Source of the DNA: Ignavibacteria bacterium
GTDB taxonomy: Bacteria; Bacteroidota; Ignavibacteria; UBA10030
Assembly (NCBI GenBank): GCA_016873805.1
Contig: VGVZ01000023.1
Coordinates: forward strand, 1-54,935
Reading direction: 5' to 3'
DNA length: 54,935 bases
Part shown: positions 16,226 to 51,985 of the stretch, one piece after another
Numbering within the stretch: the stretch's first letter is position 1
How the letters are laid out: the number at the start of each line of letters is the position of its first letter
The notes under the pieces: model-generated
Told to the model about the DNA's origin: nothing
Database searches by the model: none
Seen by the model: only the letters and a program-made list of their open reading frames with translations
Made by a program: the position numbers and the translations under genes

Positions 16226-16393
16226 ATTTCTTTCCACCGTGTTGAGAAACCCGGCCATGACGTTGTGAAATTCTGGATGGTCGATCCCGGTGTCGTTTTG
16301 TAGAAGATCATGGTGGAGACCGGCTCTGTGACACTGAGGACCCTGGGTCCGCCGAAAAGTATTGGCATTCTCCCACGGAAAGGAGACAAATGA
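16226..16393 (+). pseudogene. C-terminal stump of a GH115-type alpha-glucuronidase, with in-frame TAG
   Basis: The intergenic stretch between galM and the second GH10 gene translates (frame of 16226) to a conserved-looking tail: FHRVEKPGHDVVKFWMVDPG, then VVL, a TAG at 16301-16303, KIMVETG and LGPPKS, ending at TGA 16391-16393. The pattern 'vKFWMVDPGVVLQKIvvdtG...LGPPeS' is one I associate with the extreme C-terminus of GH115 xylan alpha-1,2-(4-O-methyl)glucuronidases and some related glycosidases. The TAG occupies the place of the usual glutamine (CAG to TAG). No start and no catalytic domain remain, so this is a remnant. Family assignment is from memory of the motif. Confidence 0.5.
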
Positions 16394-17700
16394 TGGTGAA
16401 CGTAACAGCAACAGCACAGAAATTGAAGAACGCGTTGATTCTCGTCGGCGTTCTGTCGACGATGATCACGGCGGAAGCTTTCGCACAAATGGCTGTGGGA
16501 AAAGGAAAATACCTTGGAAATGTATGGGGAGCATTTGGTTCACCCCCGCTCAATTACGATCTGTACTGGAACCAAATCACGCCGGAAAACGCTTCGAAAT
16601 GGAGTTCAGTTGAGGGGACGAGGAACAGTTACAACTGGGCTCGTGTCGACGAAATCCTCAACTATTGCCTCGACAAAAAATACCCGTTTAGGTTTCACAC
16701 CCTGATCTGGGGACAACAATATCCAAGCTGGCTGACATCGCTCGATTCCCTCAGCATTGCGCAAGAGGTTGAGGAGTGGATCAGGCTGACGGGAGAACGA
16801 TATGTCAGTGCGTCGTTTGTTGACGTGGTAAACGAACCGCTCTCTGGGCATAACCCTCCGCCCGCGCCGGTCATCAACGCGCTCGGTGGAACCGGGGCGA
16901 CGGATTGGGATTGGGTCATTCGATCATTTCAATGGGCGCGCCAGTATATGGCGAAGAGGGTCAAACTGCACCTGAACGACTTCGGCATCATCAATGACAC
17001 TCAGGCCACAAACAACTACCTCGTCATCATCAATCTTCTCAAGGAACGAAACCTGATTGATGGGATCGGCGTTCAGGGACACCTGTTCGAGTTGGAAAAT
17101 ACAGATACGACCACGATCAAGAGAAATCTTGATGCGCTCGCTGCCACAGGGTTGCCGATTTACATCACAGAACTAGATATCCAACCGGGAAATCAACTCA
17201 GCGACGCCACGCAGCTGGCCGAAATGCAGCGTATCTTTCCCCTCCTGTGGCGGCATCCGGGTATCAAAGGCATTACGTTCTGGGGGTACATCCAAGCGCA
17301 AATCTGGCAGCAGAATGCTTATTTGATCACGTCGACGGGAGCTGAACGGCCCGCGATGCAGTGGCTCAGATCCTTCATGGCGAGTATTCCCTCCGATGTG
17401 ACCGGCGGACAGGATCTTCCAACCAAGTTTGCTCTGGCGCAGAATTATCCCAACCCATTCAATCCAAGCACAACGATTGAGTATTCGTTGCCGACGAGGT
17501 CGAAGGTCAACATCTCCATCTACAATCTCCTCGGAATAAGGATTCGAACACTCGTCGACTTACATCAACAGGCTGGCAGTTACTCTGCCCAGTGGGATGG
17601 ATTGGATGAACGCGGCATGGCGGTACCGTCAGGGGTGTATTTCTATCGTCTCACGTCGGGGCAAAACGTACAGCAGAGAAAAATGAACCTGATCAGATAG
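16390..17700 (+). CDS. GH10 endo-1,4-beta-xylanase, secreted by T9SS
   Basis: 436 residues, intact, unlike the first GH10 gene. AGGAG lies six bases before ATG 16390 (a second ATG at 16393 is equally possible). A signal peptide (ALILVGVLSTMITAEAFA) precedes the barrel. GH10 marks: NQITPENASKWSSVE, FRFHTLIWGQQYPSW, acid/base in VDVVNEPLS (about E149), HLNDFGI, GIGVQGH, nucleophile in ITELDIQPG (about E261) and GITFWGY. The C-terminal ~85 residues are a type A T9SS sorting domain beginning ALAQNYPNPFNPSTTIEYSL and ending RKMNLIR, so the enzyme is released or anchored at the cell surface. It cuts the xylan backbone. It precedes the methyltransferase operon by 20 bases. Confidence 0.95.
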   Translation: MMVNVTATAQKLKNALILVGVLSTMITAEAFAQMAVGKGKYLGNVWGAFGSPPLNYDLYWNQITPENASKWSSVEGTRNSYNWARVDEILNYCLDKKYPFRFHTLIWGQQYPSWLTSLDSLSIAQEVEEWIRLTGERYVSASFVDVVNEPLSGHNPPPAPVINALGGTGATDWDWVIRSFQWARQYMAKRVKLHLNDFGIINDTQATNNYLVIINLLKERNLIDGIGVQGHLFELENTDTTTIKRNLDALAATGLPIYITELDIQPGNQLSDATQLAEMQRIFPLLWRHPGIKGITFWGYIQAQIWQQNAYLITSTGAERPAMQWLRSFMASIPSDVTGGQDLPTKFALAQNYPNPFNPSTTIEYSLPTRSKVNISIYNLLGIRIRTLVDLHQQAGSYSAQWDGLDERGMAVPSGVYFYRLTSGQNVQQRKMNLIR

Positions 17701-17720: not shown

Positions 17721-18776
17721 ATGAGGCCAGAGCAGTGGCACATGTTCAAGACGGCGGCGAGACTTGAGAAACTGGACAAAATTCCGATGGCGCTCATCAT
17801 CGACAGTCCGTGGATACCGGGGTACCTCGGTCTCAACCATATGGACTACTATCTCGATCCTGAGTTGTGGTTTCAATCGAATCTCAAGATTCACAAGGAA
17901 TTCCCGGATATCATTTTTGTCCCTTCGTGGTGGATGGAATACGGGATGGCCGCAGAACCGTCGGCACTCGGAGCAAAGATCAAATTCTGGCAGGATAACA
18001 CGCCAAGTGAATATCACACCTTGTATCAGATCGAGGACATCGAGAAGTTTCCGGAGTATGAAGTCGAGGCCGACGCATTCATGGGATTGACGCTGCATAG
18101 GATCCGGATGCACAGGCAGCGGATCCTCGACACGGGAGAGATACTGCCTCTGGTGACGGCTCGCGGCCCTCTTTGCACAGCCGGATTTGTCCGGGGGACA
18201 ACCGATTTCATGATCGACATCGTGGAAAAGCCGGAGTGGGTTCACAAATTGATCGATCTCTGCACGGGACTTGTTATCGATTGGCTCAAAGCCCAGTACA
18301 ACGCGATGGGCAATACAGTTGAAGGAATCTTCATTCTGGATGATATCGTCGGGTTCATCAACGAGGAGCACTATCAGGAGTTCGCACATCCCTATCTCAA
18401 GCGAATCTGCGACGCCTTTCTAAAAGACTGGGTGAAAATCTATCACAATGATGCGGATGTGAATGCCTGTCTCGAACATCTCCCCGAATGCGGATTCAAT
18501 GTCCTGAACTGGGGAAAACAAACCGACATCGCTAAGGTCAGAGAGCGGATCGGCGGACGAATGTGCTTGATGGGAAATGTGAATCCCCTCGAAGTGGGCG
18601 TCAGCGGGACGCCCGAAGAAGTGCGTGAAGCGACGCTCGAGGTTCTCGAAAAAAGCGGTGGTGAAGGGCTCATTCTCTCGGTCGGAGGCGGAACCAGTCC
18701 GGGCATGCCCCGAGAAAACATCCTTGCGATGGTAGGAGCTCTCGAAGAATTCAACGCGGCCCATGCCAGACCGTAG
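17721..18776 (+). CDS. UroD-family corrinoid-dependent methyltransferase (MtaA/MT1-like)
   Basis: 351 residues with the uroporphyrinogen decarboxylase fold used by methylcobamide methyltransferases: an N-terminal helix that sets up the barrel (MFKTAARLEKLDKIPM), VTARGPLCTAGFVRGT in the middle, IFILDDIVGFINEEHYQEF, a candidate zinc site in KIYHNDADVNACLEHL, and the C-terminal GGTSPGMPRENILAM. It is not a haem enzyme: no other haem gene is near, and a corrinoid protein gene follows 20 bases later. The role proposed is methyl transfer between a substrate and the corrinoid protein, either as the donor-specific enzyme or as the second methyltransferase. The substrate is unknown; the position right after xylanase genes suggests a methoxylated sugar (inference). 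AAAGG precedes the ATG. Confidence 0.78.
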   Translation: MRPEQWHMFKTAARLEKLDKIPMALIIDSPWIPGYLGLNHMDYYLDPELWFQSNLKIHKEFPDIIFVPSWWMEYGMAAEPSALGAKIKFWQDNTPSEYHTLYQIEDIEKFPEYEVEADAFMGLTLHRIRMHRQRILDTGEILPLVTARGPLCTAGFVRGTTDFMIDIVEKPEWVHKLIDLCTGLVIDWLKAQYNAMGNTVEGIFILDDIVGFINEEHYQEFAHPYLKRICDAFLKDWVKIYHNDADVNACLEHLPECGFNVLNWGKQTDIAKVRERIGGRMCLMGNVNPLEVGVSGTPEEVREATLEVLEKSGGEGLILSVGGGTSPGMPRENILAMVGALEEFNAAHARP

Positions 18777-18796
18777 GTGCAGAAAGGAATTGTCGG

Positions 18797-19447
18797 ATGC
18801 CTGACTATGCATTGCTGAATCAGTATCTTTACGAAGGCAAAGCGAAAGAAGTGGAGCAGATGACCAAGGACGCGATCGCGGAGGGGCGGAGCGTCCAGGA
18901 GGTGCTGTCGGATGGACTCATCGCCGGAATGAAGGTCGTCGGAGAGGACTTCAAGCACAATATTCTCTACGTCCCGGAAGTCCTGATTGCGGCGCGCGCG
19001 ATGAAGGCAGGCATGACCGTCCTGAAACCACTTCTCACGGCGAAGGAGTCGAACGTGAAGCCGGCAGGAGTTCTGCTGATGGGAACAGTCCGTGGAGATC
19101 TGCACGACATCGGCAAGAACCTCGTTTGCATGATGGCGGAAGGAGCGGGCTTCCAGGTGCACGATATCGGCGTTGATCAAGGCGTCGAGAAGTTCATCGC
19201 AGCGGCTGAAGAGGTCAAACCGGATATTGTCGGCATGAGTGCATTGCTGACGACGACCATGACATATATGAAGGTGGTGATCGACGGATTCAGGGAACGA
19301 GGTCTCGGTCACATCAAAACCGCAATTGGTGGTGCGCCGATCAGCCAGATGTTTGCCGATGAAATCGGCGCGGACGGGTACGGAGCCGATGCTTCCGCTG
19401 CCGTCGATCTGTTTCTTACACTCATGGAACATTCATCTCGGGATTAG
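18797..19447 (+). CDS. Corrinoid (cobalamin-binding) protein of a methyltransferase system
   Basis: 216 residues, the size of MtaC/MtbC/MttC-type proteins. The first ~90 residues form the four-helix cap (ALLNQYLYEGKAKEVEQM through VLIAARAMKAGM). The Rossmann half carries the base-off/His-on motif in GDLHDIGKNLV (DxHxxG), then the SALLTTTMTYM segment and GGAPISQMFADEIGADGYG. It would carry the methyl group as methyl-Co(III) between the UroD-family enzyme and the H4F or homocysteine enzymes encoded next to it. AAAGGA precedes the start. It lies 20 bases after the methyltransferase. Confidence 0.93.
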   Translation: MPDYALLNQYLYEGKAKEVEQMTKDAIAEGRSVQEVLSDGLIAGMKVVGEDFKHNILYVPEVLIAARAMKAGMTVLKPLLTAKESNVKPAGVLLMGTVRGDLHDIGKNLVCMMAEGAGFQVHDIGVDQGVEKFIAAAEEVKPDIVGMSALLTTTMTYMKVVIDGFRERGLGHIKTAIGGAPISQMFADEIGADGYGADASAAVDLFLTLMEHSSRD

Positions 19448-19517
19448 CAGGATCTTTGCCGGGCCAATGGATGAATCTTCCCAGAACGGTCTCACGAATC
19501 CTTCCTGATAACTGCTC

Positions 19518-20423
19518 ATGAAGAGACTTCTTCACGATATCGTGCGTGAACGACGGCTCGTCTGCGACGGCGCGATGGGTACACAGCTGATGCTTGTCGG
19601 ATTGGACGCCGGCGGATGCGGGGAATATTGGAACCTGATTCGCCCGGAGCGTGTCGTGGAAATCCATCGGAGGTATGTTGAGGCCGGAGCGGATTGCATT
19701 ATTACGAATACGTTCGGTGCAAACCGAGTCGTTCTTCGGCGGCATGGCTACGGGGAAAAGGTTCGGGAAATCAACAGCGGGGGAGTGCGACTTGCCCGCA
19801 CGGCTGCGTCAGGCCGGGAAACATACATTCTCGGCGGCGTCGGTCCGCTCGGTGCGATCTTGCAGCCGTACGGCGATTTGCCGGTCGAGGAGGCGAGGAA
19901 CGCATTCGACGAGCAGTGTTCTGCGCTGGTCGAGGCGGGCGTTGATGCGATCATCATCGAAACGCAGACTTCCCTCGAGGAACTCGGTATTGCGATCCAG
20001 GCCGCGAAGAGCGCGTGGGCCAAATGTATTATCGCCTCTCTTGCATTTGATTTATCTGCCAACAAGGAGTTCTTCGTCACGATGATGGGCGTTTTACCGG
20101 AAGCGGCCGCGGAGTTCATCCAGGGAAACGGTGCACACATCGTTGGCCTGAACTGTGGCACCGGCATAGACATGGCGGCCGTCGCAAGTATTGTGCAGAC
20201 ATATCGGAAGCATACTTCTCTCCCGACGATGGGTCAACCCAATGCCGGTCTGCCGGTTTTGGACGGAGGTCGGGCCGTCTACAAACAATCCCCGAAGGAT
20301 ATGGCTTCTGGTGTCCTCAAGGCGCTTGAGGCCGGAACGAACATCATCGGATCTTGCTGCGGGAGTACCCCCGAACATACACGGGCTATTCGCGAAGTCG
20401 TCGATATGTATAACCGTGGCTAA
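19518..20423 (+). CDS. Homocysteine S-methyltransferase (MetH homocysteine-binding module as a separate protein)
   Basis: 301 residues matching the N-terminal homocysteine domain of MetH. Marks: CDGAMGTQLM at the start, TNTFGANR, GGVGPLGAIL, IETQTSLEEL, and the three zinc cysteines in GLNCGTG and GSCCGSTPEH. It transfers a methyl group to homocysteine to make methionine, here presumably from the corrinoid protein encoded upstream, because no B12 domain is fused to it. The start at 19518 lacks a good ribosome site but the conserved helix follows directly. It is 70 bases after the corrinoid gene and 48 before the MetF fusion. Confidence 0.88.
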   Translation: MKRLLHDIVRERRLVCDGAMGTQLMLVGLDAGGCGEYWNLIRPERVVEIHRRYVEAGADCIITNTFGANRVVLRRHGYGEKVREINSGGVRLARTAASGRETYILGGVGPLGAILQPYGDLPVEEARNAFDEQCSALVEAGVDAIIIETQTSLEELGIAIQAAKSAWAKCIIASLAFDLSANKEFFVTMMGVLPEAAAEFIQGNGAHIVGLNCGTGIDMAAVASIVQTYRKHTSLPTMGQPNAGLPVLDGGRAVYKQSPKDMASGVLKALEAGTNIIGSCCGSTPEHTRAIREVVDMYNRG

Positions 20424-20471
20424 GGTCGATTCGCTCGTACTTGACGGCGCGTGTGATTCACTGGAGCAATA

Positions 20472-21989
20472 ATGCAGACACTGCGAGAAAAACTACACGA
20501 GTCAAAGGAATTCCTCTTCGGAGTTGAACTCGTATCGATCCGCGGTTCCATGGGAACGGCAAACGCGGTGAAGGCGCGAACGTTTGCAGGTCAGCTTGTC
20601 GAAAATCCCCGCGTCGATTGGATTTCCGTTACTGACAACGCCGGAGGCAATCCGCAGCTTGCACCTCAAGCTCTCGGACGACCAATCCTCTATGCCGGCA
20701 AGGAAGTGGTTCTACATCTCACCTGCAAAGATCTTAATCGCAACGGACTGGAGAGCAAGGCATGGTTGCTGAACAGCGAGGGATTCCATAACGTTCTCGC
20801 GATGACGGGCGATCACCCTGCTTCGGGGAATGAAAGAATGGCCAAGCCCGTCTTCGATATCGATTCGGTGGGACTCATCTGCATGCTGAGCAAGATGAAT
20901 GCCGGCTTTGACGAACGCCACGAGAAGACGCAGTTCTGCATCGGTGCGGTAACGACAAACTACAAACTGCTGGAAGGGGAGGTCGTTCCGCAATATCTCA
21001 AGTTGAGGAAGAAAATCGAGTGCGGAGCAGAGTTCATCATCAATCAGGTCGGGTTCGATGCCAGGAAGATGCATGAACTGCGGCTCTACATGGACGATCA
21101 TGGGATCGGTCATATCCCGCTGATTGGCAACGTCTACGTGCTCAACGCGCGTGCGGCTCGTTTCTATCACGAGAACAGAGTACCGGGCGTCGTCGTGACT
21201 CCCGCTCTTCTGGAGCTTTGCGTGAAGCACGGCGCATCACCGGACAAGGGAAGAGAGTTCTTTCTCGAGTTCGCAGCGAAGCAAGCGGCAATCTATCGCG
21301 GATTGGGGTATCGCGGGGCCTATCTCGGCGGTCTGCACGATGCGAATGCGGTCCGAAGGATCATGGAACTCGAACGACAATTTGCTGCAGATGATTGGAA
21401 ATCTTTCGCGAAGGAACTGCGGTTCTCCAGACCCGGCGAATTCTTCTACTATGAAGAGGACCGCGAAAGCAGGTTGGCCGATCGAACCCGGGTTGCTCAG
21501 CGCCCGAAGAGACGGACCGTTTCCGGTTCTCTGTTGTATCGCCTCTCGAGGCGAACACATCATTTCATATTTACTCCCGGTTCCGGTCGAGCGCGATGGG
21601 GCGCACGAACGGTCAGCCGTTCGAGTGATCCTCTGCAGGGACCTCTGGTCATGAGAGCTGTCGAACGGGTCAGCAAATCACTCCTGTATCGGTGCAAGGA
21701 TTGTGGAGATTGCTCGCTGCCCGATATCGCGTTCCTCTGTCCGGAATCGCAGTGCGCGAAAAACCAACGCAATGGTCCTTGCGGTGGTTCAAGGGAGGGT
21801 AGCTGCGAGGTCGAGGGTATTGGACCATGCATCTGGCTGCGTGCCTACGAGCGATTGAAATTGGATGGAATGGAGGATAAATTGCTGACACACGCACCGG
21901 TCGTGCAGGATCAGCGACTCCGGGGAACTTCGTCGTGGGCAAATAACTGGCTCGGTCGCGACCACGCATCAAAAGATTCGAAAAAATAG
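20472..21989 (+). CDS. Methylenetetrahydrofolate reductase fused to a MetV-type C-terminal domain
   Basis: 505 residues in two parts. Residues 1 to about 300 are a MetF barrel (FGVELVSIRGS, DWISVTDNAGGNPQLAP, LHLTCKDLNR, LAMTGDHP, GAEFIINQVGFD), binding FAD and methylene-/methyl-H4F. From about residue 395 there is a cysteine-rich MetV-like domain (CKDCGDCSLPDIAFLCPESQ, CAKNQRNGPCGG, CEVEGIGPCIW), which in acetogens is a separate iron-sulfur/zinc partner subunit. The fusion would interconvert methyl-H4F and methylene-H4F, either supplying methyl groups for methionine or oxidising methyl groups delivered by the corrinoid system. Good context with the methyl-H4F:corrinoid methyltransferase 28 bases downstream. 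Confidence 0.85.
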   Translation: MQTLREKLHESKEFLFGVELVSIRGSMGTANAVKARTFAGQLVENPRVDWISVTDNAGGNPQLAPQALGRPILYAGKEVVLHLTCKDLNRNGLESKAWLLNSEGFHNVLAMTGDHPASGNERMAKPVFDIDSVGLICMLSKMNAGFDERHEKTQFCIGAVTTNYKLLEGEVVPQYLKLRKKIECGAEFIINQVGFDARKMHELRLYMDDHGIGHIPLIGNVYVLNARAARFYHENRVPGVVVTPALLELCVKHGASPDKGREFFLEFAAKQAAIYRGLGYRGAYLGGLHDANAVRRIMELERQFAADDWKSFAKELRFSRPGEFFYYEEDRESRLADRTRVAQRPKRRTVSGSLLYRLSRRTHHFIFTPGSGRARWGARTVSRSSDPLQGPLVMRAVERVSKSLLYRCKDCGDCSLPDIAFLCPESQCAKNQRNGPCGGSREGSCEVEGIGPCIWLRAYERLKLDGMEDKLLTHAPVVQDQRLRGTSSWANNWLGRDHASKDSKK

Positions 21990-22017
21990 AAGCCAGTCAC
22001 GAGGAGGTGATACAACG

Positions 22018-22950
22018 ATGACTACTCCAAACATGCACCTTATCGGGGATCTCATCAACAATGCCTACGCCCGGGCCAGGAAGGCGTTCAGTGAACGCGA
22101 CCTGAAAGGATATCAAACCCTGGCAAGACTCCAGACTGAACTCGGAGTACACTATCTGGATGTCAATCTCGACGGGACCCAGAAGATCCAGGTGAGACCT
22201 CAGGAAATGCTGGACTTTCTTCCCGAGATTATTCCCGCGCTGCAGGAAGCCTCTTCACTGCCTCTCTGCTTTGACAATCCCTCCATGGAATACCACAACG
22301 TTGCCCTGAAGCACTACGATCGGGCCCGGGGCGGAAGGCCGATTATCGACTCGATCGCGGCCTCCCGTGAGCGACTCGAAGAGATGATTGAGCTGGTACG
22401 GGAATACGATACGATGGTTGTGGTCATGGCGTCGGAACGGTTCGACGAGGGTGGGACGGCACAATGTGTGAGCCCTCAAGACGTCCATGAGGCCGCGAAG
22501 TACTTTGTCGAGCTTCTGGCGACGAAGGCAGGACGGACTAACGATCAGATCATCATTGATCCCGGGCTTGCGCCTGTGGGGGCGGATACATATGGCTTGG
22601 TCAACATCGGCCTGGACGCAATGCGGTTGATTCGCAAGGACCCGGATCTACGGGGTGTGCATATTACCGTGGGTCTTTCCAATCTTGCGTGGGGGACGCC
22701 GAAGCATATCCGGCCGGAACTTGAGAAGGCGTATCTCACGATCGCAGCAGAGGCGGGTCTGGATTTTCCGATCGTCAACCCGGAATCAGCACGAGAGCCG
22801 TTGCCCGCTAATGACAGGATGGTAGGTCTGCTCCGGGATGCATTGGATAAGGGGAGAGCCTCTGAGGGAGAAAGCATGGAGACCGCTGGGTTCCGGCAGG
22901 CGGAGGCAGTGATGAGGCTCTGGATGGACGCAGAGTCTGATAATGTCTGA
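22018..22950 (+). CDS. Methyltetrahydrofolate:corrinoid methyltransferase (AcsE/MetH pterin-module type)
   Basis: 310 residues of the pterin-binding (DHPS-like) barrel. The opening IGDLINNAYARARKAF resembles 'iGErIN.T..' of AcsE/MetH; LDVNLDGTQ follows, then PLCFDNPSMEYH, the aspartate/asparagine motif IDPGLAPVGAD and HITVGLSNLAWGTP, all typical of methyl-H4F methyltransferases rather than folate synthesis. A strong ribosome site, GAGGAGGTGA at 22001-22010, fixes the start. It moves methyl groups between H4F and the corrinoid protein. Its end at 22950 converges on the minus-strand gene ending at 22970. Confidence 0.9.
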   Translation: MTTPNMHLIGDLINNAYARARKAFSERDLKGYQTLARLQTELGVHYLDVNLDGTQKIQVRPQEMLDFLPEIIPALQEASSLPLCFDNPSMEYHNVALKHYDRARGGRPIIDSIAASRERLEEMIELVREYDTMVVVMASERFDEGGTAQCVSPQDVHEAAKYFVELLATKAGRTNDQIIIDPGLAPVGADTYGLVNIGLDAMRLIRKDPDLRGVHITVGLSNLAWGTPKHIRPELEKAYLTIAAEAGLDFPIVNPESAREPLPANDRMVGLLRDALDKGRASEGESMETAGFRQAEAVMRLWMDAESDNV

Positions 22951-22969
22951 CTGCGTTTGCAATGGTGAT

Positions 22970-23296
22970 TCACATACCGATCAGTATTTCCGAATCGGTC
23001 ATCTTCAACTTGACCCCGGCTGCCGCGGCGGCCTCTTCAAGTGCGGCGGCGAACATGGCGACCGGATCCTCGCTCACCTCAAGTCTTCGCATTAACCCCT
23101 CACCTTTCTTTTCTCCGATTGCCAGAGTGATCTTTAGTCCTTTCCGCTTACAACTCACGCGGGTTCCATCCTCGAGACTCTTGTTCATCGGCTTGATGAA
23201 CGCATCAATGTAGTGCACACCGATCCCGGATTTGTCCTGACACTTCGGCGGCAGTTTTTCCTTCGCAGACTGGTCGATATCGCAAAGTTTGATCAT
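22970..23296 (-). CDS. Small conserved-looking protein of unknown function in the corrinoid gene set
   Basis: 108 residues from ATG 23296, preceded by AAAGGA; the open frame continues upstream to 23452 but overlaps the neighbouring gene. I do not recognise the family. It contains two cysteines near the N-terminus (LCDIDQ, PPKCQDKSGIG), a third in RVSCKRKGL, a basic central part and an alanine/glutamate-rich helix (AMFAAALEEAAAAAGVKL). It lies 19 bases after the gene for the MetH-type activation domain and appears to be the last gene of the kinase-RACo-activation operon, so a role in corrinoid handling is plausible by position only. Confidence 0.65.
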   Translation of the reverse strand: MIKLCDIDQSAKEKLPPKCQDKSGIGVHYIDAFIKPMNKSLEDGTRVSCKRKGLKITLAIGEKKGEGLMRRLEVSEDPVAMFAAALEEAAAAAGVKLKMTDSEILIGM

Positions 23297-23315
23297 GATG
23301 GCATCCTTTGTGGTT

Positions 23316-24572
23316 TCAATCCGGCTCTCCGTCGACGTGGCTAAGGGCAACGTGAAGCACTTCAAGAACCAGACCCCACTTGTGATTGCGGCTGAGAGGG
23401 TCGCAGTAACATCCTGAAGGGTCGTACGGCCGTTTCCAATCGAAGATATCATTCAGATTTCTTCCCAGCAATGGCTGTTCATCTTTGATCCCCCTCATCA
23501 GTTCTTCGGCGTTCTCAATGTACTTACACATTGATTTGTGGCCCGTATCGCCGGGGGCGGGTTCACAACGGGCTTCCAGAATCCTGTGTCCATCAGATTT
23601 CGGTCCAAGCCGCAGATGATAGTCAAACTCAAGCGGCCGGCCCAAATTGGAACATGTCGTCCCTTCGTACCGGAACCTCGCCGCAATAGAGTGATCAGCA
23701 TCAGTCCTGAATTGCAGTCGATTCCGCGCCCACTTTCTCAATGTGGCGATATTGAACGTATACTGGTGTCTGGCTGAAATCTCGGCGGATCGGTCGACAG
23801 ATGAATCACTTCTGGGCTGGAGTCTCAAGACATCTTCGATTTGCAGTGGTTCATGCGTGTACGGTGCGCGTCGATATTGACACGGAGAGAGTGAGCACTT
23901 CTCGCACGGGGTCAATTCGGTGAGACGATGGGCCTTCCCGACGCAGGAGGTGATTCCGTAGAGTGCGAGGAGAGATTTCTTTGGTGTCAGCATGCCGGTT
24001 TCGTACACATCAAGCTCGCCCGGCAATGTCTGCTTGTCTCCCTGTCGGATTGTTCGCAGAAGTCTTTTCTGGTCCGAAACAGCCCAGCCCGGATATCCCG
24101 GGCTGTAATGGGGCAAGACGGACTTCCGGTTTCTGTCAGCCCACTCACAGAGACGATATGCGGCAACGGTAGTCAGATGCTCGACGACCGCAGATCCGTA
24201 GATCTCGAGAAAGAAATACTCATCCGGTTTCTCCCCCATCCAGAGTCGCCGGGCTTCTTCCTCAAGTTCTTTCCCTGCGCTCACAGCCACGAGCATCGCC
24301 TCGTCAGCATGCGCCTCCATGAGTTGACCATGAAGTCTCGGAGAAGTGATGACCTCACCGTCGATAATCACCGTGCCGTTTGAGATGATGAGTGCCTCGG
24401 CCTGACGGATGTACAGCCATGGTTTTCCGTTCCGCTCGTACCACCGGGCTGCCCAATCAGCGAGTTCACGCGATCGTCCGGTGAGTTCATAGCTGACGGG
24501 AAAGCCAAGCAGTCGCTTGTACTCGGTTTCCTGAACCGCAATTTCTGGACGGTTGTCGGTGAATTCAAACAT
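23316..24572 (-). CDS. MetH-type activation-domain protein with cysteine-containing C-terminal extension
   Basis: 418 residues. The first ~230 resemble the AdoMet-binding activation domain of cobalamin-dependent methionine synthase: a helical start with YKRLLGFP, then VEHLTTVAAYRLCEW, the key YSPGYPGWAVSDQKRLL segment (MetH 'SPGYP.cpd..dq' region that binds AdoMet) and the following MLTPKKSLLALYGI (MetH 'amtPa.Svsg'). After this a motif of cysteines, CEKCSLSPCQYRR, could hold metal, and about 190 further residues resemble nothing I can name, with additional cysteines in PSGCYCDP. The family's function is reductive methylation of inactive cob(II)alamin. Its gene lies 21 bases after the RACo-type gene, so two reactivation routes are encoded side by side. 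Confidence 0.75.
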   Translation of the reverse strand: MFEFTDNRPEIAVQETEYKRLLGFPVSYELTGRSRELADWAARWYERNGKPWLYIRQAEALIISNGTVIIDGEVITSPRLHGQLMEAHADEAMLVAVSAGKELEEEARRLWMGEKPDEYFFLEIYGSAVVEHLTTVAAYRLCEWADRNRKSVLPHYSPGYPGWAVSDQKRLLRTIRQGDKQTLPGELDVYETGMLTPKKSLLALYGITSCVGKAHRLTELTPCEKCSLSPCQYRRAPYTHEPLQIEDVLRLQPRSDSSVDRSAEISARHQYTFNIATLRKWARNRLQFRTDADHSIAARFRYEGTTCSNLGRPLEFDYHLRLGPKSDGHRILEARCEPAPGDTGHKSMCKYIENAEELMRGIKDEQPLLGRNLNDIFDWKRPYDPSGCYCDPLSRNHKWGLVLEVLHVALSHVDGEPD

Positions 24573-24593
24573 CGTGAATTGCTGTCTCTCGCG

Positions 24594-26246
24594 CTAGGAG
24601 TGTTCTGATTTCTTTATTGATTCAACTGGATTGAATTGACATCCTTCTACGAAGTAGTGGAAGAAGTGTGGATCCGACTCGAGACGGCAGTGGGTGACGT
24701 TCTTGACCGTCTGTTCAAGCTCGTTGCGCTTGCTGCGCGATAACAGGGCAAGGCATGCCCCCTCGATCGCGGCATTACCGACCTGCACGATTTTCGACTC
24801 GTCGATATTCGGAATCAGGCCGATCCGTTTGGCAGAGCCGATATCGAGATGCCGTCCAAATCCCCCCGCCAGATAAAAGACATCGAGATCCTCGAATCGT
24901 ATCCCGTATTCCTTGAAAACAATCTGAAGCCCCGCGACGTTCGCTCCCTTGGCCTGCGCGAGTTCATTGATATCGCTTTCGGTCAGCGAAATCTCTCCAT
25001 TCTCGCTTGTTTTAACAACAAGGCGATCTCTCTCCACAACAAAGCGTCCGAGCGTATTGATCCTCCCCGTTCTCAACAGTTCTCCCAGAAGATCGATGAG
25101 CCCGGAGCCGCAGATGCCTTCTGCGGGACGATCCCCGATGACCCTGCAATCAACCGTACCATCACCCCGGATCTTTACTTTGTCGATCGCCCCCGGGAGT
25201 CCGGGCATGCCGCACGAAATCCTTCCCCCCTCGAATGCCGGTCCCGCGGGGCAGGAAGCTGCCAGAATCTTGTGCCTGTTGCCTACGATCAGCTCGGTGT
25301 TGGTGCCGATGTCCATGATGGCGACGAGCCGTTCCTCATTGGCAATGTCGACTGCCAACATACATGCCGCCGCGTCAGCTCCGACGTGGCCGCTGATAAT
25401 CGGCAAGCCGTACACGCGTCCTCGTGGATGAGTGGGAAGACGAAGGGGTTTGGGGGCCGAGATGAGCGAGGTCGTTGTTCGCTTGCCCTCTCCTATCTCC
25501 GATTCGGTGATCGAACGGTACGGGTTCTGACCAATCGAGTGGACGTCGAGCCGGAAGAAGAGATCGCGCATCGTTGAATTGCCAACCACGACCATTTCAT
25601 AGATCGTACGCGGATCCACAGGGAACTGTTCAATGGCGTGCGTGACATACCCGGCGAGGGTCTTCTGGAGGAGCTTTCCCGGGTGAACCGTGTCGAAGTG
25701 AATCCTTGACATCACGTCGGACCCGCCGAAGCGCTGCGGATTTTCGAAGGACGCGTCGGCAACAATTTCACCCGTCCCGAGATTCAACAATCGGATCACC
25801 ACAGTTGTTGTTCCCAGGTCGATCGCGACGCCATGCAATGGCCCATCACGGCTTTCAATTTCCACGCCATCCAGGAGGATCCTTTCGCCATCACGCGTCA
25901 CGCAAGGATCCGGTTCCGCGATCGCACGGTTGATCGGCAGGTTGAACGCGTGGCGCTCGATGTTCATTCCCCCCCGCCGCATCGGATGGCAACGGATGGT
26001 TCCAGCGTCGCCCGTCACCCTTGCGCGGCACGACAAACGGTATTGATCGTTCAGATGTGATTCATGAGGCGTGCGATCGGAGAGGAACTCCATTCCCTCA
26101 ATCACTTCTACCAGACACTCCTTGCACTTCCCCTGTTTCTGGCACGAAGTGGGAATGTACAAGCCAAGCGATTCGGCGCATTCGAACAGTGAAGCACCCG
26201 ACGGCGCCAGAATCTTCCGGTCGTTGATGTGAAGTTCGATACTCAT
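24594..26246 (-). CDS. Reductive activator of corrinoid proteins (RACo-type [2Fe-2S]/ASKHA ATPase)
   Basis: About 550 residues from ATG 26246, chosen because the ferredoxin domain begins right there; an in-frame ATG at 26294 is also possible. The N-terminal ~90 residues form a plant-type [2Fe-2S] domain (PTSCQKQGKCKECLVEV and the fourth cysteine in YRLSCRAR). A linker leads to the ASKHA domain: AIDLGTTTVVIRLLNL (phosphate loop), IMDIGTNTELIVGN, ISCGMPGLPGAID, GICGSGLIDLL and YLAGGFGRHLDI. These are the marks of RACo/RamA-like activators, which use ATP to reduce Co(II) corrinoid proteins back to Co(I). It presumably serves the corrinoid protein encoded at 18797. It is transcribed with xylulokinase upstream. 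Confidence 0.9.
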   Translation of the reverse strand: MSIELHINDRKILAPSGASLFECAESLGLYIPTSCQKQGKCKECLVEVIEGMEFLSDRTPHESHLNDQYRLSCRARVTGDAGTIRCHPMRRGGMNIERHAFNLPINRAIAEPDPCVTRDGERILLDGVEIESRDGPLHGVAIDLGTTTVVIRLLNLGTGEIVADASFENPQRFGGSDVMSRIHFDTVHPGKLLQKTLAGYVTHAIEQFPVDPRTIYEMVVVGNSTMRDLFFRLDVHSIGQNPYRSITESEIGEGKRTTTSLISAPKPLRLPTHPRGRVYGLPIISGHVGADAAACMLAVDIANEERLVAIMDIGTNTELIVGNRHKILAASCPAGPAFEGGRISCGMPGLPGAIDKVKIRGDGTVDCRVIGDRPAEGICGSGLIDLLGELLRTGRINTLGRFVVERDRLVVKTSENGEISLTESDINELAQAKGANVAGLQIVFKEYGIRFEDLDVFYLAGGFGRHLDIGSAKRIGLIPNIDESKIVQVGNAAIEGACLALLSRSKRNELEQTVKNVTHCRLESDPHFFHYFVEGCQFNPVESIKKSEHS

Positions 26247-26301
26247 CTTCTGGTTTGGGGACGAGTCGATGTCGACGAAAAGAGAAACTGCCATGATCGG
26301 G

Positions 26302-27789
26302 CTATTCGGCGAGAGCCCGGTTGAGATGGCTCACCCATCGATTGTAGGCATTCAGAGTGATGCCCCGATTGCCTTCGCGCGGTTCGATGGTATCCAACGA
26401 CGTGAAGGATCGGAAGGCTTCTTCGAAGGTACACGCCTTGCTCCCCACGGCCGCACCTCTCGCAGCCCCCTGAGCGCCATCGGTATCGTACAGTTCGATT
26501 GCCGCACCCGTTACCGTAGAGAATGTCTGACGGAATACGGGACTCAGGAACATATTCGACCTGCCGGCACGAATCACGCGGATGTTCAATCCCATTTCGT
26601 TCATGATGTCGACACCGTATTTCAGCGAAAACGCGATTCCCTCTTGCGCGGCGCGAACAATGTGAGCCAACGAATGCCTGTTGAAATCGAGTCCGAGCAC
26701 GCGGCTGCCGATGTTCCGATTCTCGAGCACGCGTTCTGCACCGTTGCCGAACGGCAGGATGCTCAATCCATCCGCTCCGATCGGCACTCGATCGGCCTGC
26801 CGGTTCATCTCGTCGTATGAAAGTCCTGCCGCCGCGTTCTTCCGGGGCCACGAATTGAGAATCCCCGTTCCGTTCACGCAGAGCAGCACACCAAGTCGGA
26901 TGTGATCGTTGGAATGATTTACGTGTGCGAATTGATTCACGCGTGAGAGTCGATCGTACCGGACCTGATCGATCACTCCGTACACAACGCCGGATGTTCC
27001 TGCTGTCGCCGCGATTTCGCCGGGTTGCAGGACGTGAAGCGACAATGCATTGTTCGGTTGATCTCCCGCGCGGTACGAGACGGCAATCCCCTCTTTCAAT
27101 CCGAGCTCTTGCGCTGCGCTTCGTGTGACGGTTCCCTGAACGGAGAAGGTGGGATGAAGGGTGGGGAGAATTGCGGCGTCGATTTCGTACGTGGTGAGAA
27201 CGTCCCTCGACAACTCATTCTTTCGAAAATCCCAAAACATGCCTTCCGACATGCCGGAAATTGTCGATGAAATTTCACCGGTCAGTCTGTACGCGATGTA
27301 GTCACCTGGAAGCATCGCCTTGAAGATCTTGTCATAGGTTTTCGGCTCGTTCTCTTTGACCCACCGGAGCTTCGAGGCGGTGAAGTTGCCGGGGGAATTC
27401 AGGAGATGTTCAAGACAACGTTGTGGCCCGATCGCTTCGAACGCTTTGTTGCCGATCTCGACCGCGCGGCTGTCGCACCAGATAATCGAGGGACGAAGGA
27501 CCTTCCCCTCCTTGTCGACAAGCACAAGTCCGTGCATCTGGTACGAGATTCCGATCGACATGATCCGCTGAGGATCTGTCGAAGCACGAGAGAGAGCCAT
27601 CTTTGTCACGGTCTTGACATGTTCCCACCATGACTCGGGATCCTGTTCTGCCCATCCCGGTTTGGGTGAGCGAATCTCCATCTCATCGGGGGGATACGAG
27701 GCGTTTGTGATGAGCTTTCCGCTCTCGTAATCGAACAGCGCACACTTGATTGAAGAGCTTCCGATATCATATCCGAGCGCTATGGGCAT
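26302..27789 (-). CDS. xylB: Xylulokinase (FGGY kinase)
   Basis: 495 residues from ATG 27789, which has AGGAAAG upstream; the longer open frame to 27870 is not needed. FGGY marks: LGYDIGSSSIKCALFDY (phosphate loop), KPGWAEQDPESWW, ISYQMHGLVLVD, WCDSRA, the RAGDQPNNAL domain-II motif, and the C-terminal RAGRSNMFLSPVFRQ with DTDGAQGAARGAA. The sequence is closest in feel to Bacteroidota xylulokinases. It phosphorylates D-xylulose from the xylose branch of xylan breakdown. It heads the minus-strand operon that continues into the corrinoid activator genes, an unusual pairing, and diverges from uxuA. Confidence 0.88.
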   Translation of the reverse strand: MPIALGYDIGSSSIKCALFDYESGKLITNASYPPDEMEIRSPKPGWAEQDPESWWEHVKTVTKMALSRASTDPQRIMSIGISYQMHGLVLVDKEGKVLRPSIIWCDSRAVEIGNKAFEAIGPQRCLEHLLNSPGNFTASKLRWVKENEPKTYDKIFKAMLPGDYIAYRLTGEISSTISGMSEGMFWDFRKNELSRDVLTTYEIDAAILPTLHPTFSVQGTVTRSAAQELGLKEGIAVSYRAGDQPNNALSLHVLQPGEIAATAGTSGVVYGVIDQVRYDRLSRVNQFAHVNHSNDHIRLGVLLCVNGTGILNSWPRKNAAAGLSYDEMNRQADRVPIGADGLSILPFGNGAERVLENRNIGSRVLGLDFNRHSLAHIVRAAQEGIAFSLKYGVDIMNEMGLNIRVIRAGRSNMFLSPVFRQTFSTVTGAAIELYDTDGAQGAARGAAVGSKACTFEEAFRSFTSLDTIEPREGNRGITLNAYNRWVSHLNRALAE

Positions 27790-28047: not shown

Positions 28048-29238
28048 ATGAGGTTGGAGCAAACATGGAGATGGTTCGGTCCGAAGGATCCGATCACGCT
28101 CCGGGAAATCGGGCAAACAGGAGCGACAGGGATCGTGACGGCGCTTCATCATATTCCCGTCGGGGAAACGTGGAGCGTCGAGGAAATCATGGTTCGGAAA
28201 CGGATGATCGAGGCGGAGGGATTGTCATGGTCCGTGGCGGAGAGCATCCCGGTGCATAAGGAAATCAAGACACGAAGGGGAGACTACGAGTCGCGTATTG
28301 CAAACTATGCCGCATCGATCCGGAACCTGGGACGTTGCGGAATTGATACGGTCTGCTACAACTTCATGCCTGTTCTTGATTGGTCCCGGACCGATCTCAA
28401 GGTCGTCTTCCGCGACGGATCGATTGCGACGAAATTCGAGACACACGTGTTTGCCGCATTCGATCTCTTTCTTCTGAAACGACCGAATGCGGAGAGAGAT
28501 TACACCCCGGATCAAATCGAGAAGGCAAAGGGATTCGTCGCGAGTCTGGGAGAAAAGGAGAAAGAGCAGTTGATCCACACCATCCTTCTCGGATTTCCCG
28601 GTTCGCTTGAATCGTACACTCTCGATGAATTCAGATCAGCGCTCAGGGTATATGACGAGATGGGTGATGTCTCGCTTCGCGAACACCTCGCTTCATTTCT
28701 GAAAGGGATCATTCCTGCTGCAGAAGAATCGGGTGTGCGGATGGCAATGCATCCGGATGATCCACCGTGGTCCCTTCTGGGGCTGCCGAGAATCGTCAGC
28801 AACGCAAGCGATGTCAGACAGTTGCTTGAGGTTGTGGATTCGCCTGCGAACGGGATAACGCTCTGCACAGGCTCGTTTGGGGCGAGCGTGAAGAACGATC
28901 TCGAGGAGATGACAAACACGTTTGCGCACAGGATCAATTTCGTCCATCTCAGGAATGTGAAGAGAAATGCGCATGGTGATTTCCTGGAGGACAATCATCT
29001 GGATGGCGACGTCGACATGTACGGAGTGATGAAGGCCCTTCTGCTTGAACAGAAACGGCGCGCCGACGAGGGACGAGAGGATCTCCGGATGCCTTTCCGC
29101 CCCGATCACGGTCACCTGATGCTGGCTGATCGCCACTGGCAACACATCTATCCCGGCTATTCGCTGTTCGGTCGCATGAGGGGACTGGCCGAGCTGCGCG
29201 GGCTGGAGCTTGGGATCAGGCGTTCGCTGGGCCTGTAG
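28048..29238 (+). CDS. uxuA: Mannonate dehydratase
   Basis: 396 residues from ATG 28048 (AAAGGG just upstream; the longer frame from 27982 has no support). UxuA marks: the N-terminal EQTWRWFGPKDPITLREIGQ, GATGIVTALHHIPVGE, VAESIPVHKEIKTR, CYNFMPVLDWSRTDL, and the metal/catalytic region MAMHPDDPPWSLLGLPRI, CTGSFGA, NFVHLRNVKR and FRPDHGHLM. It dehydrates D-mannonate to 2-keto-3-deoxygluconate in the glucuronate pathway, which links this locus to glucuronic-acid side chains of xylan. The other pathway enzymes (UxaC, UxuB, KDG kinase) are not in the window. It is a single gene, divergent from xylB. Confidence 0.95.
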   Translation: MRLEQTWRWFGPKDPITLREIGQTGATGIVTALHHIPVGETWSVEEIMVRKRMIEAEGLSWSVAESIPVHKEIKTRRGDYESRIANYAASIRNLGRCGIDTVCYNFMPVLDWSRTDLKVVFRDGSIATKFETHVFAAFDLFLLKRPNAERDYTPDQIEKAKGFVASLGEKEKEQLIHTILLGFPGSLESYTLDEFRSALRVYDEMGDVSLREHLASFLKGIIPAAEESGVRMAMHPDDPPWSLLGLPRIVSNASDVRQLLEVVDSPANGITLCTGSFGASVKNDLEEMTNTFAHRINFVHLRNVKRNAHGDFLEDNHLDGDVDMYGVMKALLLEQKRRADEGREDLRMPFRPDHGHLMLADRHWQHIYPGYSLFGRMRGLAELRGLELGIRRSLGL

Positions 29239-38333: not shown

Positions 38334-39030
38334 TGCTGAAACAAGAAGATGTTCTTGTGTCTTCTACGTCCTCATTTTCAGCATCGACTGTCCGAAGGAC
38401 CCCCTCGGGGAAATCCCTGCTCCCGCTTGCCTAGGAGAATTCATGGAGGCGGGCAGGCGCCTCACCGGGTACCATGGAGGCAGGCGGGGACGCCTATCTT
38501 TATCGGCAGAACCCGTCCGAAGGACCCCTTCGGGGAAGGGTTTGTGATTCACCGAGGGCTCGAGCCGTCAGATTCATCTGATGGCGGTGACAAAGTCAAC
38601 GCCTAGTTTCCCTCGTCAAAACCCGAAGGCTTTGTGGTTCGCAACGCACTCAGCCGTCCCCGCGTTCCGCAAGCACGCGGTCGCGCGCCGAACAGGGATT
38701 CATCCGATGGCGGTGGAGCTGAGTCGACACCGTTCGGCGCAAAACCCTATTCGATATCCATTGAAGGAGTGTGACGACCGTACCTCGATACCTCACTCGG
38801 AGGCAAGAACGCGCAACAATAATGCACATTCACCTCAAGTCTCCTCTTTCCTCACTGGCGTTTCTCCTTGCAGTTCAGGCATTTGTCTTGTAAGTTCTCC
38901 GCTACTGACCAATGCGGATTCACACACCGGTCACAGAACGATTCGTGCTAGGGATTGCCTCAATGTCGCTCTCCACGGGTTCCATACCGAGATCGCGTCC
39001 TTCCATCACAAGAACTTCTCCGTTCCGCTG
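38334..39030. other. Gene-free interval with short repeats before the hydantoinase gene
   Basis: I find no supportable gene. Two copies of GTCCGAAGGACCCC occur (38390-38403 and 38515-38528), also present at 34611. Two copies of a 19-base direct repeat GATTCATC(T/C)GATGGCGGTG lie at 38571-38589 and 38697-38715. An open frame runs from 38581 into the hydantoinase but its translation looks non-coding. A 23-residue signal-peptide-like ORF (MHIHLKSPLSSLAFLLAVQA, 38822-38893) may be the start of a lost exported protein. Confidence 0.55.
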
Positions 39031-40419
39031 ATGTCAATTCTCATCAAGAACGGAACCATTGTCACCGACGAGGGTATTATTGACGCCGATATCTTCGCGG
39101 AGGGAGAATTGATTTCCGCCATCGGAAAAGATCTCTCGTGTGATGCTGATCGAATCGTCGATGCGACGAAAAGGTTGGTCATGCCGGGAGGAATCGATGT
39201 GCACACGCATCTTGAACTTCCCGTTGGAGATATCGTTTCGAGCGATGATTTTGAAACCGGTACACGCGCGGCCGCGTTCGGAGGGACGACGAGCATAATC
39301 GATTTTCCGACGCAGTTGCGCGGACAATCGCTTATGGAGGCGTACGATGTGTGGCGCGCGAAAGCACAAAAAGCGACGATCGACTACGGCTTTCACATGA
39401 TCATTGCGGATGTGAGCGGGAATCAGCTGGATGAAATCGACGAGCTTGTTGCCGAGGGGATCACGAGCTTCAAAGTCTTTACTGCCTATCCCGACCGACT
39501 GATGATCGATGACGAGGCGCTTCAAAAGATCATGGTGAGGGTGGGCCGGCAGGGGGGCATTGTGGCGGTGCATGCCGAGAACGAGGCCTCGATCGCTCCC
39601 CTCGTGAAGAAGGCGCTCGCTGAGGGGCGGAAATCGCCGCTCAACCATGCCCTCACGCGGCCGGCGAGTTCGGAGGCAGAAGCGGTCGCGCGGGTTATTG
39701 CGCTGGCGAGAATTGCGGATGCCCCGATCTACATCGTGCACGTCACATGCGCGGAAGCCCTTGCAGAAATCGCACGTGCGCGGAGGGAGTGGCCAAAAAT
39801 CTTCGGCGAAACGTGTCCGCACTATCTCTTCCTCACGAAGGATGATCTTGACCGCCCCAGCTTTGAGGGGGCAAAGTACGTCCTCACGCCCCCGCTGAGG
39901 GAAACCAGGGATCATGACGCGCTCTGGAACGGCCTCTGTGCCGGCGATCTGCAAGTTGTCTCAACCGATCATTGCCCCTTTATGTTTGAAACGCAAAAGA
40001 AGCGGGGAATCGATGATTTCACGAAGATTCCCAACGGCGGACCGGGTATTGAAAACCGTCTCCAGCTTCTGTATCATTTTGGGGTGAACAAAAAGCGCAT
40101 CAGCGTTCGCGAGTGGGTTGACCTGGTGGCGACGAATCCGGCAAAAATCTTCGGCCTCTATCCCCGCAAGGGGACGCTGAAGGTTGGAGGCGATGCAGAT
40201 ATTGTGATGTGGAATCCGGACCAGATGTATACGATATCGGCGAAGAGCCATCATATGCGCGTTGACTATTCGATGTTTGAGGGATTTGAGGTGCGAGGAA
40301 ATGCTGAGACGGTGATTTCGCGAGGGGAGATTATCGTTGAGAAGAACCAGTGGTTCGGTCGAACGGGTAGGGGAAGGTTCTTGAAACGCGCTCGATTTGA
40401 TGCAAGCGTGATGATGTGA
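39031..40419 (+). CDS. D-hydantoinase / dihydropyrimidinase-type amidohydrolase
   Basis: 462 residues from ATG 39031; the extra 150 codons upstream in the same frame show no conserved sequence. The start ILIKNGTIVTDEGIIDADI is typical of hydantoinases. The binuclear metal site is complete: GGIDVHTHLE, the carboxylated lysine in ITSFKVFTAYPDRL (about K148), HAENE, IYIVHVTCAEAL, and STDHCPF. It opens cyclic imides or ureides such as hydantoins, dihydropyrimidines or related purine-ring products. It begins the purine-degradation cluster and overlaps the next gene by four bases if that uses GTG 40416, comparable to hyuA in the E. coli yge/xdh region. Confidence 0.9.
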   Translation: MSILIKNGTIVTDEGIIDADIFAEGELISAIGKDLSCDADRIVDATKRLVMPGGIDVHTHLELPVGDIVSSDDFETGTRAAAFGGTTSIIDFPTQLRGQSLMEAYDVWRAKAQKATIDYGFHMIIADVSGNQLDEIDELVAEGITSFKVFTAYPDRLMIDDEALQKIMVRVGRQGGIVAVHAENEASIAPLVKKALAEGRKSPLNHALTRPASSEAEAVARVIALARIADAPIYIVHVTCAEALAEIARARREWPKIFGETCPHYLFLTKDDLDRPSFEGAKYVLTPPLRETRDHDALWNGLCAGDLQVVSTDHCPFMFETQKKRGIDDFTKIPNGGPGIENRLQLLYHFGVNKKRISVREWVDLVATNPAKIFGLYPRKGTLKVGGDADIVMWNPDQMYTISAKSHHMRVDYSMFEGFEVRGNAETVISRGEIIVEKNQWFGRTGRGRFLKRARFDASVMM

Positions 40420-41882: not shown

Positions 41883-41966
41883 ACGCGAAAAAGGCACGGA
41901 TTAGCGCGGATTGAGGATCTCAATTCGCGTACATCCGCGTTTCTTCCGCGTGATCCGTGGCGAATA
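41873..41966 (+). repeat. Intergenic repeat, copy A (between xdhA and xdhB)
   Basis: A ~90-base element beginning CCGCGGATAGACGCG and ending CGTGATCCGTGGCGAAT, with an internal stem (GGATTGAG-GAT-CTCAATTC). Related copies lie at 49175, 50130 and 54434, all in the same orientation. The TAG stop of xdhA is part of the repeat's first bases. Confidence 0.8.
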
Positions 41967-41969
41967 ATC

Positions 41970-45559: not shown

Positions 45560-45570
45560 ATCAGAACTCT

Positions 45571-49183: not shown

Positions 49184-49264
49184 ACGCGGAAAAAGACGGA
49201 TGGTCGCGAATTGAGGACCTCAATCCGTGTACATTCGCGTGGTTTCGGTGTTCATCCGCGGTAA
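49175..49264 (+). repeat. Intergenic repeat, copy B
   Basis: Starts AACCACGGATAAACGCGG and ends TTCATCCGCGGTAAA, with an internal stem (GAATTGAG-GAC-CTCAATCC). Same orientation as the other copies. It provides the last codons and TAA stop of the XdhD-like gene. Confidence 0.8.
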
Positions 49265-49271
49265 ATATTCT

Positions 49272-50132: not shown

Positions 50133-50178
50133 CCGCGGATGACCCTGAAAAAGACGGATTCACGCGGATTGAAGATCA
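50130..50178 (+). repeat. Intergenic repeat, copy C (truncated)
   Basis: Starts AACCGCGGATGACCCTG and keeps GAAAAAGACGGATT and CACGCGGATTGAAGATC, then diverges; the right half present in copies A, B and D is missing. Confidence 0.65.
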
Positions 50179-50197
50179 GACATCAAAGCATCTGAGA

Positions 50198-51977: not shown

Positions 51978-51985
51978 GGTGTGTC

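Follow-up and report, generated by a model that had tools for sequence, protein, structure and literature searches.

A putative cobalamin-dependent O-demethylase gene set for 4-O-methyl-D-glucuronate in xylan-degrading bacteria

Introduction

The corrinoid O-demethylases MtvABC, Odm, Vdm and Dhaf0720-0722 of D. hafniense share a UroD-type methyltransferase I (MT I), a small corrinoid protein, a pterin-type methyltransferase II (MT II) and a RACo-type activating enzyme (PMC3727330, PMC13222342). MT I, the corrinoid protein, MT II and RACo together make up the four-part O-demethylase set (PMC3727330). The substrates of these systems, most of which occur in anaerobes, are aryl methyl ethers. The CdmBCA chloromethane system of Acetobacterium also combines a UroD-superfamily MT I with a corrinoid protein and MT II; it is haloalkane-specific, is closest to archaeal MtoB and has neither a homocysteine branch nor a sugar context. 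In the MtgBCDE system, or split methionine synthase, of marine Rhodobacteraceae, the corrinoid (MtgC), folate (MtgD) and homocysteine (MtgE) proteins are separate and are accompanied by a RamA-like activase and MetF, and dual use of this type of set, in methionine synthesis and in demethylation, has been demonstrated (PMC5764234, PMC12478193). Its donor protein, for glycine betaine, is of the MttB type, and the system includes a DUF1638 protein and lacks a PF02965 module.

Glucuronoxylan is among the most abundant plant polymers, 4-O-methylglucuronate is a standard side chain of it, and the alpha-glucuronidases that release this sugar are well studied. A full-text search of open-licence PMC papers found no report of an enzyme that removes its methyl group. 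Here we describe a gene set on a 54,935-nucleotide stretch of DNA from an Ignavibacteria bacterium (contig VGVZ01000023.1 of assembly GCA_016873805.1; hereafter, the window). We consider that the set probably encodes a multi-component cobalamin-dependent O-demethylase for the xylan side-chain sugar 4-O-methyl-D-glucuronate.

Results

The gene set lies within an arabinoxylan locus. A plus-strand gene for a GH10 endo-xylanase with a T9SS sorting tail (16390-17700; PF00331 match at C23:16555-17367, with NCBIfam matches to both xylanase and T9SS tail) immediately precedes and adjoins the gene for a UroD-family protein (17721-18776, plus strand; PF01208, E 6e-44), the putative 4-O-methylglucuronate:corrinoid methyltransferase, or MT I. 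The same strand then carries a corrinoid protein, the predicted methyl carrier (18797-19447), a homocysteine S-methyltransferase module (HMT; 19518-20423; PF02574, E 3e-63), a MetF-MetV fusion predicted to convert methyl-H4F to methylene-H4F (20472-21989; PF02219 and PF12225) and the methyl-H4F module, MT II (22018-22950; PF00809, E 1e-16). On the minus strand are a conserved 108-amino acid protein (22970-23296), an AdoMet activation, or reactivation, protein (23316-24572), a RACo-type ATP-dependent reductive activase predicted to serve corrinoid proteins (24594-26294; PF14574, E 3e-73; PF17651, E 2e-34; Fer2) and, on the activase's strand, a xylulokinase-like FGGY-family sugar kinase (26302-27789; PF00370 and PF02782). 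The mannonate dehydratase UxuA of the glucuronate pathway stands beside the set (28048-29238, plus strand; TIGR00695 above cut-off, E 3e-154). No cobalamin riboswitch or other Rfam element reached the gathering threshold in the window.

Profile and fold comparisons bear out the earlier note, which had named the four modules of cobalamin-dependent methionine synthase (MetH), for homocysteine, B12, folate and activation, as separate genes: three have Pfam matches, and the activation module was identified by hhalign and fold. The convergent arrangement with MetF-MetV described there is also present, with plus-strand genes ending at 22950, minus-strand genes beginning at 22970, and MetF-MetV forming a single fused ORF. 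The corrinoid protein is of the small two-domain type (PF02607 and PF02310), carries the DxHxxG motif as GDLHDIG, and has 1y80 as its top PDB relative (E 5e-57); the genome encodes no other stand-alone PF02607 protein. That the corrinoid protein is shared by several methyl donors and acceptors, as proposed in the same note, is the best reading, since it is the sole protein of its kind and such sharing is known for MtgC of Ruegeria (PMC12478193). HMT has its zinc cysteines in NCG and CCG motifs, and MT II has 4o0q as its nearest PDB entry, followed by AcsE and MetH folate domains.

The protein encoded at 23316-24572 had no Pfam, NCBIfam or PDB sequence match and stayed below the curated PF02965 cut-off, so we had suspected a misassigned activation module. 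This suspicion was dropped after hhalign aligned it with short PF02965-positive proteins (probability 98.8, E 8e-17) and its AlphaFold model matched Thermotoga maritima TM0269 (1j6r), in which the AdoMet activation domain likewise forms a protein of its own (Z 19.9, rmsd 2.1, over 194/197 residues), and MetH structures (Z 14-16). Judged by its predicted fold, the protein is a true relative of the MetH activation domain. Only the N-terminal ~220 residues correspond to the activation module; unlike TM0269, the protein has an extra conserved, cysteine-containing C-terminal part of ~150 residues, and its putative client is a free corrinoid protein rather than a MetH core.

The UroD-family protein scored below the cut-offs of the HemE, MtaA, MtbA and CmuA models, and the same genome encodes a separate HemE. 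In sequence, the UroD-family protein is weakly related to CdmB (9rui). We found the protein at 75-88% identity across 80 loci from at least six phyla (Bacteroidota/Ignavibacteria, KSB1, Verrucomicrobia, Acidobacteria, Phycisphaerae and Gemmatimonadetes). Genes for corrinoid, RACo, activation and HMT proteins surround it. A second UroD clade, at ~35% identity, occurs in operons of the order GH10-GH115-GH43-corrinoid-HMT-activation-UroD; the HNDA motif is invariant in both clades, and the clade-2 counterparts of the activation protein exceed the PF02965 cut-off. Beside the corrinoid, RACo and 108-amino acid genes, HMT is the most constant partner at UroD loci. MT II and MetF-MetV are absent nearby in many relatives; the folate module lies near 6 of 36 clade-1 loci with flanks and none of 14 clade-2 loci, while UroD is present in all. 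Neighbors are UxuA, GH67, GH115, GH43, a KduD/UxuB-like SDR and a glucarate-dehydratase-like enolase, and no aromatic-degradation gene recurred among the neighbor families listed.

We then analyzed co-occurrence with alpha-glucuronidase (GH67/GH115) in 293 genomes of the class. Alpha-glucuronidase was present in 34 of 37 genomes with the UroD gene and in 2 of 256 without it (34 genomes had both, 254 had neither, 3 had UroD but no alpha-glucuronidase and 2 the reverse; Fisher p 1.4e-38). The association held at the genus level, at 21 of 22 genera with UroD against 1 of 133 without (counts 21/1/1/132; p 1e-23). As a xylanase control, we considered GH10 carriers only: the UroD gene occurred in 34/35 carriers with alpha-glucuronidase and in 1/17 without (p 3e-11), ruling out a mere correlation with xylan degraders. 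The nearest alpha-glucuronidase copy lay within 10 kb of UroD in 19/37 genomes, GH67 and/or GH115 appeared in the fetched flanks of 20/80 UroD loci, and one or both were found in 44 of the 51 genomes with the module. GH67/GH115 were not found in the remaining 7/51, some of which are incomplete, nor in 3/37 UroD genomes of the class. In the window genome, GH115 is present on another contig, and UxaC lies at C13. Co-occurrence does not distinguish between glucuronate derivatives as the substrate.

Discussion

All components of an O-demethylase were found in the window, namely a UroD-superfamily MT I, a small corrinoid protein, an MT II using H4F and a RACo-type activase, and the locus looks like corrinoid O-demethylase anatomy with an added homocysteine branch. 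It differs from MtvABC, Odm, Vdm and Dhaf0720-0722 in the proposed aliphatic sugar ether substrate, in its xylan and glucuronate loci, and in its additional homocysteine methyltransferase and AdoMet-activation protein. The separate corrinoid, folate and homocysteine proteins, the activase and MetF are shared with MtgBCDE, from which the set is distinguished by a UroD-type donor (PF01208 rather than the MttB-type PF06253), an activation module and a full MetH encoded besides. O-demethylation of 4-O-methylglucuronate is indicated because the context, which the earlier note had left unused, is one of xylan, alpha-glucuronidase and glucuronate.

In the proposed mechanism, MT I would take the methyl group from 4-O-methylglucuronate, or from an early intermediate derived from this sugar, and load it onto the small corrinoid protein's Co(I). 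MT II would pass it from there to H4F, and the fused MetF-MetV would then oxidize methyl-H4F to methylene-H4F; alternatively, HMT would use homocysteine as the acceptor and yield methionine. The RACo activase, together with the separately encoded AdoMet-activation protein, could restore accidentally oxidized Co(II) to its active state, and the freed glucuronate would enter central metabolism through UxaC and UxuA. KDPG aldolase cleaves between C3 and C4 and requires a free C4 hydroxyl. Demethylation would be needed because the 4-O-methyl group blocks that hydroxyl. We infer the substrate, including the exact sugar intermediate, the direction of methyl flow, the dominant acceptor and the reactivation roles. 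Because many relatives have no MT II and MetF-MetV nearby, the acceptor may be mainly homocysteine.

Could the set instead be a split B12-dependent methionine synthase, with UroD as an accessory and the synthesis of methionine from methyl-H4F as its purpose? The presence of all four MetH modules would fit, as would the constancy of HMT among the partners and the example of Phaeobacter inhibens, where a MetH split into three parts functions alongside a RACo/RamA-like activase (PMC5764234). The earlier note had read the set as a split methionine synthase and had proposed looking for a full-length metH in the whole genome. We found one: an intact MetH of 1206 amino acids with all five Pfam domains (G000:C3), which is the genomic half of what that note had named as counting against it. 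A second MTHFR is encoded at C7, and the MetH activation domain (PF02965) occurs in 37/37 UroD genomes of the class, mostly in frames of ~1200 amino acids. The intact MetH and second MTHFR indicate that the set does not mainly serve as a split methionine synthase, and the intact MetH together with the class-wide PF02965 count rules this out as its sole function. Methionine synthesis would also leave the tie to alpha-glucuronidase without a reason, and the scarcity of the folate module beside an ever-present UroD runs against it. We therefore regard this explanation as very unlikely; of the earlier reading, the module names and the shared corrinoid protein stand, and methionine synthase as the function does not.

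A corrinoid O-demethylase for methoxylated aromatics from lignin (vanillate, syringate or ferulate type), merely co-travelling with plant-cell-wall genes, would account for the four-component anatomy seen in MtvABC, Odm and Vdm and for 4o0q as the closest structure of MT II, and aromatic O-demethylases are found among UroD-superfamily MT I proteins (PMC13222342). Such a substrate is nonetheless unlikely, given that the tie is specific to alpha-glucuronidase and not to xylanase as such, and that the neighbors are UxuA, GH67, GH115, GH43 and the SDR and enolase named above, with no aromatic-degradation gene recurring among the families listed. Slightly less probable still is a demethylase for another methylated compound freed with xylan, such as a different O-methyl sugar, methanol or betaine. 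At some loci no alpha-glucuronidase is visible, and the best scores of the corrinoid protein are to MtgC glycine-betaine models, yet below their cut-offs. The donor proteins of betaine systems (MttB-type) and of methanol systems (MtaB), however, do not belong to the UroD family, and GH67 and GH115 release 4-O-methylglucuronate, the abundant methylated sugar of xylan.

Demethylation of 4-O-methylglucuronate thus being our preferred reading, the two UroD clades, spread over at least six phyla, likely represent a new and widespread catabolic pathway in which this sugar methyl ether of hardwood and grass xylan undergoes B12-dependent demethylation, its methyl group passing to methionine and the folate C1 pool. 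If so, the demethylation step would be corrinoid-dependent, many soil, sediment and groundwater bacteria would need vitamin B12 for xylan use, the range of UroD-type demethylases would widen from aryl ethers to sugars, and methionine and C1 units would be sourced from xylan methyl groups.

Points of chemistry, stoichiometry and gene content speak against the proposal. The aryl methyl ethers and haloalkanes used by known UroD-type enzymes are more activated than an aliphatic sugar ether, and homocysteine as the sole acceptor could hardly absorb methyl groups in the stoichiometric amounts that growth on the sugar would release. The position of GH115 on a different contig in the window genome, and the module and UroD genomes in which neither GH67 nor GH115 was found, also count against it.

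Besides the RACo activase, the earlier note had passed over the gene for the 108-amino acid protein. Its fold had no convincing match (Foldseek top E 0.12; VIA top Z 3.5). The protein has relatives in 50 loci, their alignment shows 27 invariant positions, and its AlphaFold model has a pLDDT of 81.

A corrinoid methyltransferase module in an arabinoxylan locus

Two convergent gene sets occupy positions 17721-26294 of the window. The plus-strand genes, spaced 20 to 70 bases apart, encode a UroD-family protein (17721-18776), a corrinoid protein (18797-19447), a homocysteine methyltransferase module (HMT; 19518-20423), a fused MetF-MetV (20472-21989) and a pterin-type methyltransferase (methyltransferase II; 22018-22950), for which the closest structure is 4o0q. 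The minus strand, followed inwards, carries genes for a sugar kinase of the FGGY family (26302-27789), an activase of RACo type (24594-26294), an activation protein (23316-24572) and, last, a 108-aa protein (22970-23296). Pfam and NCBIfam support every assignment except those of the activation and 108-aa proteins. The module lies within an arabinoxylan locus, with a GH10 xylanase directly upstream, GH127, arabinofuranosidase and pentose-use genes (isomerase, kinase, class II aldolase-type), and the mannonate dehydratase UxuA just past it. UxaC and a GH115 alpha-glucuronidase are encoded in the source genome outside this locus.

The earlier note had read 18797-24572 as a methionine synthase split into four proteins. 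The source genome (3.2 Mb, 99% complete) encodes an intact 1206-aa MetH with all domains (G000:C3), and a MetH activation domain is found in 37/37 UroD genomes of the class, mostly in frames of about 1200 aa; the intact metH that the note had named as genomic evidence against its reading is therefore present, and the window set is probably not the cell's methionine synthase. The genome also has a second MTHFR (contig C7), and its only stand-alone PF02607 protein is the window's corrinoid protein.

Because Pfam and NCBIfam searches gave no match for the activation protein, we put its assignment to the test. An alignment of 26 relatives matched the short proteins of a second gene cluster (hhalign probability 98.8, E 8e-17), one of which passed PF02965. 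The AlphaFold model (pLDDT 82) matched the stand-alone Thermotoga activation domain 1j6r (Z 19.9, rmsd 2.1, 194 residues) and MetH activation domains (Z 14 to 16). The proposed AdoMet activation module thus holds for the N-terminal half, but not for the C-terminal ~150 residues, an added domain with invariant cysteines C307, C349, C388 and C390 whose fold search yielded no strong match (best Z about 5). The 108-aa protein, for which our searches gave neither a family nor a fold match, is conserved in 50 clade-1 loci (close relatives of the window UroD protein) at a frequency similar to that of RACo, and is possibly a partner of that activase.

Association with alpha-glucuronidases

Searching genomes with the UroD protein yielded 80 loci in Bacteroidota/Ignavibacteria, KSB1, Verrucomicrobia, Acidobacteria, Phycisphaerae and Gemmatimonadetes, with identities of 75 to 88%. 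Such identity across phyla suggests transfer and one fixed substrate. In the 36 loci flanked on each side by 6 kb or more, nearby partners were the corrinoid protein (29), the 108-aa protein (29), RACo (27), HMT (27), the activation protein (23), MetF-MetV (7) and methyltransferase II (6). In 11 loci, e.g. L054:1-1317 (-), the genes for MetF-MetV and methyltransferase II have an amidohydrolase (PF01979) gene next to them.

GH67 and GH115 are alpha-glucuronidases, which free 4-O-methylglucuronate from xylan fragments. They recur near UroD loci (GH67 in 15, GH115 in 9), as do a UxuA paralogue, a KduD/UxuB-like SDR, a glucarate-dehydratase-like enolase and GH43. The enolase-superfamily protein adjoins the module at L035:2523-3848 (+) and ten more loci, mostly Acidobacteria, hinting that an oxidative uronate route replaces UxaC/UxuA there.

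Across 293 genomes of the class, UroD (E below 1e-60) occurred in 37, GH67 and/or GH115 in 36, both in 34 and neither in 254 (Fisher p 1.4e-38). GH10 carriage served to control for xylan use in general: UroD was present in 34/35 GH10 genomes with an alpha-glucuronidase and 1/17 without (p 3e-11). These tests ignore phylogeny, for which the genus-level table (21, 1, 1, 132; p 1e-23) is a partial correction only. An alpha-glucuronidase gene lay within 10 kb of UroD in 19/37 genomes. In the cross-phylum set, 44/51 genomes had at least one alpha-glucuronidase.

Eight of the 37 genomes carry close orthologues (82-100%), and 29 carry a second clade (about 35% identity). An HNDA motif is invariant across the two clades, which have many further residues in common. 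A clade-2 operon, at L101, reads GH10-GH115-GH43-corrinoid protein-HMT-activation protein-UroD; RACo, methyltransferase II and the 108-aa protein were not found near clade-2 operons. In these xylan operons an additional, only distantly related member of the UroD family (about 20-23% identity) is often encoded a few genes away (L101:12436-13452, +; L117:6172-7215, -; L104:12903-13928, +).

Proposed demethylation of 4-O-methylglucuronate

Known corrinoid O-demethylases comprise a substrate methyltransferase, a corrinoid protein, an H4F methyltransferase and an activating enzyme (PMC3727330), and the substrate methyltransferases MtvB, OdmB, VdmB and MtoB belong to the UroD superfamily (PMC13222342). 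The window encodes counterparts of all four. Ruegeria MtgC and MtgD, where one corrinoid protein was shown to serve both demethylation and methionine synthesis (PMC12478193), are a precedent for sharing it with an HMT-type branch.

We propose that 4-O-methylglucuronate would be freed by alpha-glucuronidase and that the UroD methyltransferase, acting either on this free acid or on an intermediate formed later, would move the methyl group onto the corrinoid protein. From there, methyltransferase II would transfer it to H4F, for conversion to methylene-H4F by the adjacent MetF-MetV, or HMT to homocysteine as an added branch to methionine; RACo and the activation protein would rescue oxidised cobalt, and glucuronate would enter the UxaC/UxuA route. 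Aldolase cleavage of 2-keto-3-deoxy-6-phosphogluconate needs a free C4 hydroxyl, so chemical reasoning on the known pathway indicates that demethylation is needed. Our caution about this substrate arises mainly because an aliphatic ether is harder to demethylate than an aryl ether. Full-text searches of open-licence literature turned up no publication describing a corrinoid system that demethylates methylglucuronate. The machinery is of a known kind; new here are the proposed type of substrate, the presence of a homocysteine branch within the same operon and the connection with xylan.

Elsewhere in the window, a second GH10 xylanase gene (948-2741, +) has one in-frame TAG at about 1761-1763, followed directly by an ATG in a continuing frame; it is a pseudogene, a readthrough case or an assembly error. 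Translations at 38581-54444 (+) read as a purine/pyrimidine-type catabolic set: a dihydropyrimidinase-like protein, two xanthine-dehydrogenase-like large subunits, an SsnA-like amidohydrolase, a PreT/PreA-like pair and a YgeW-like carbamoyltransferase.
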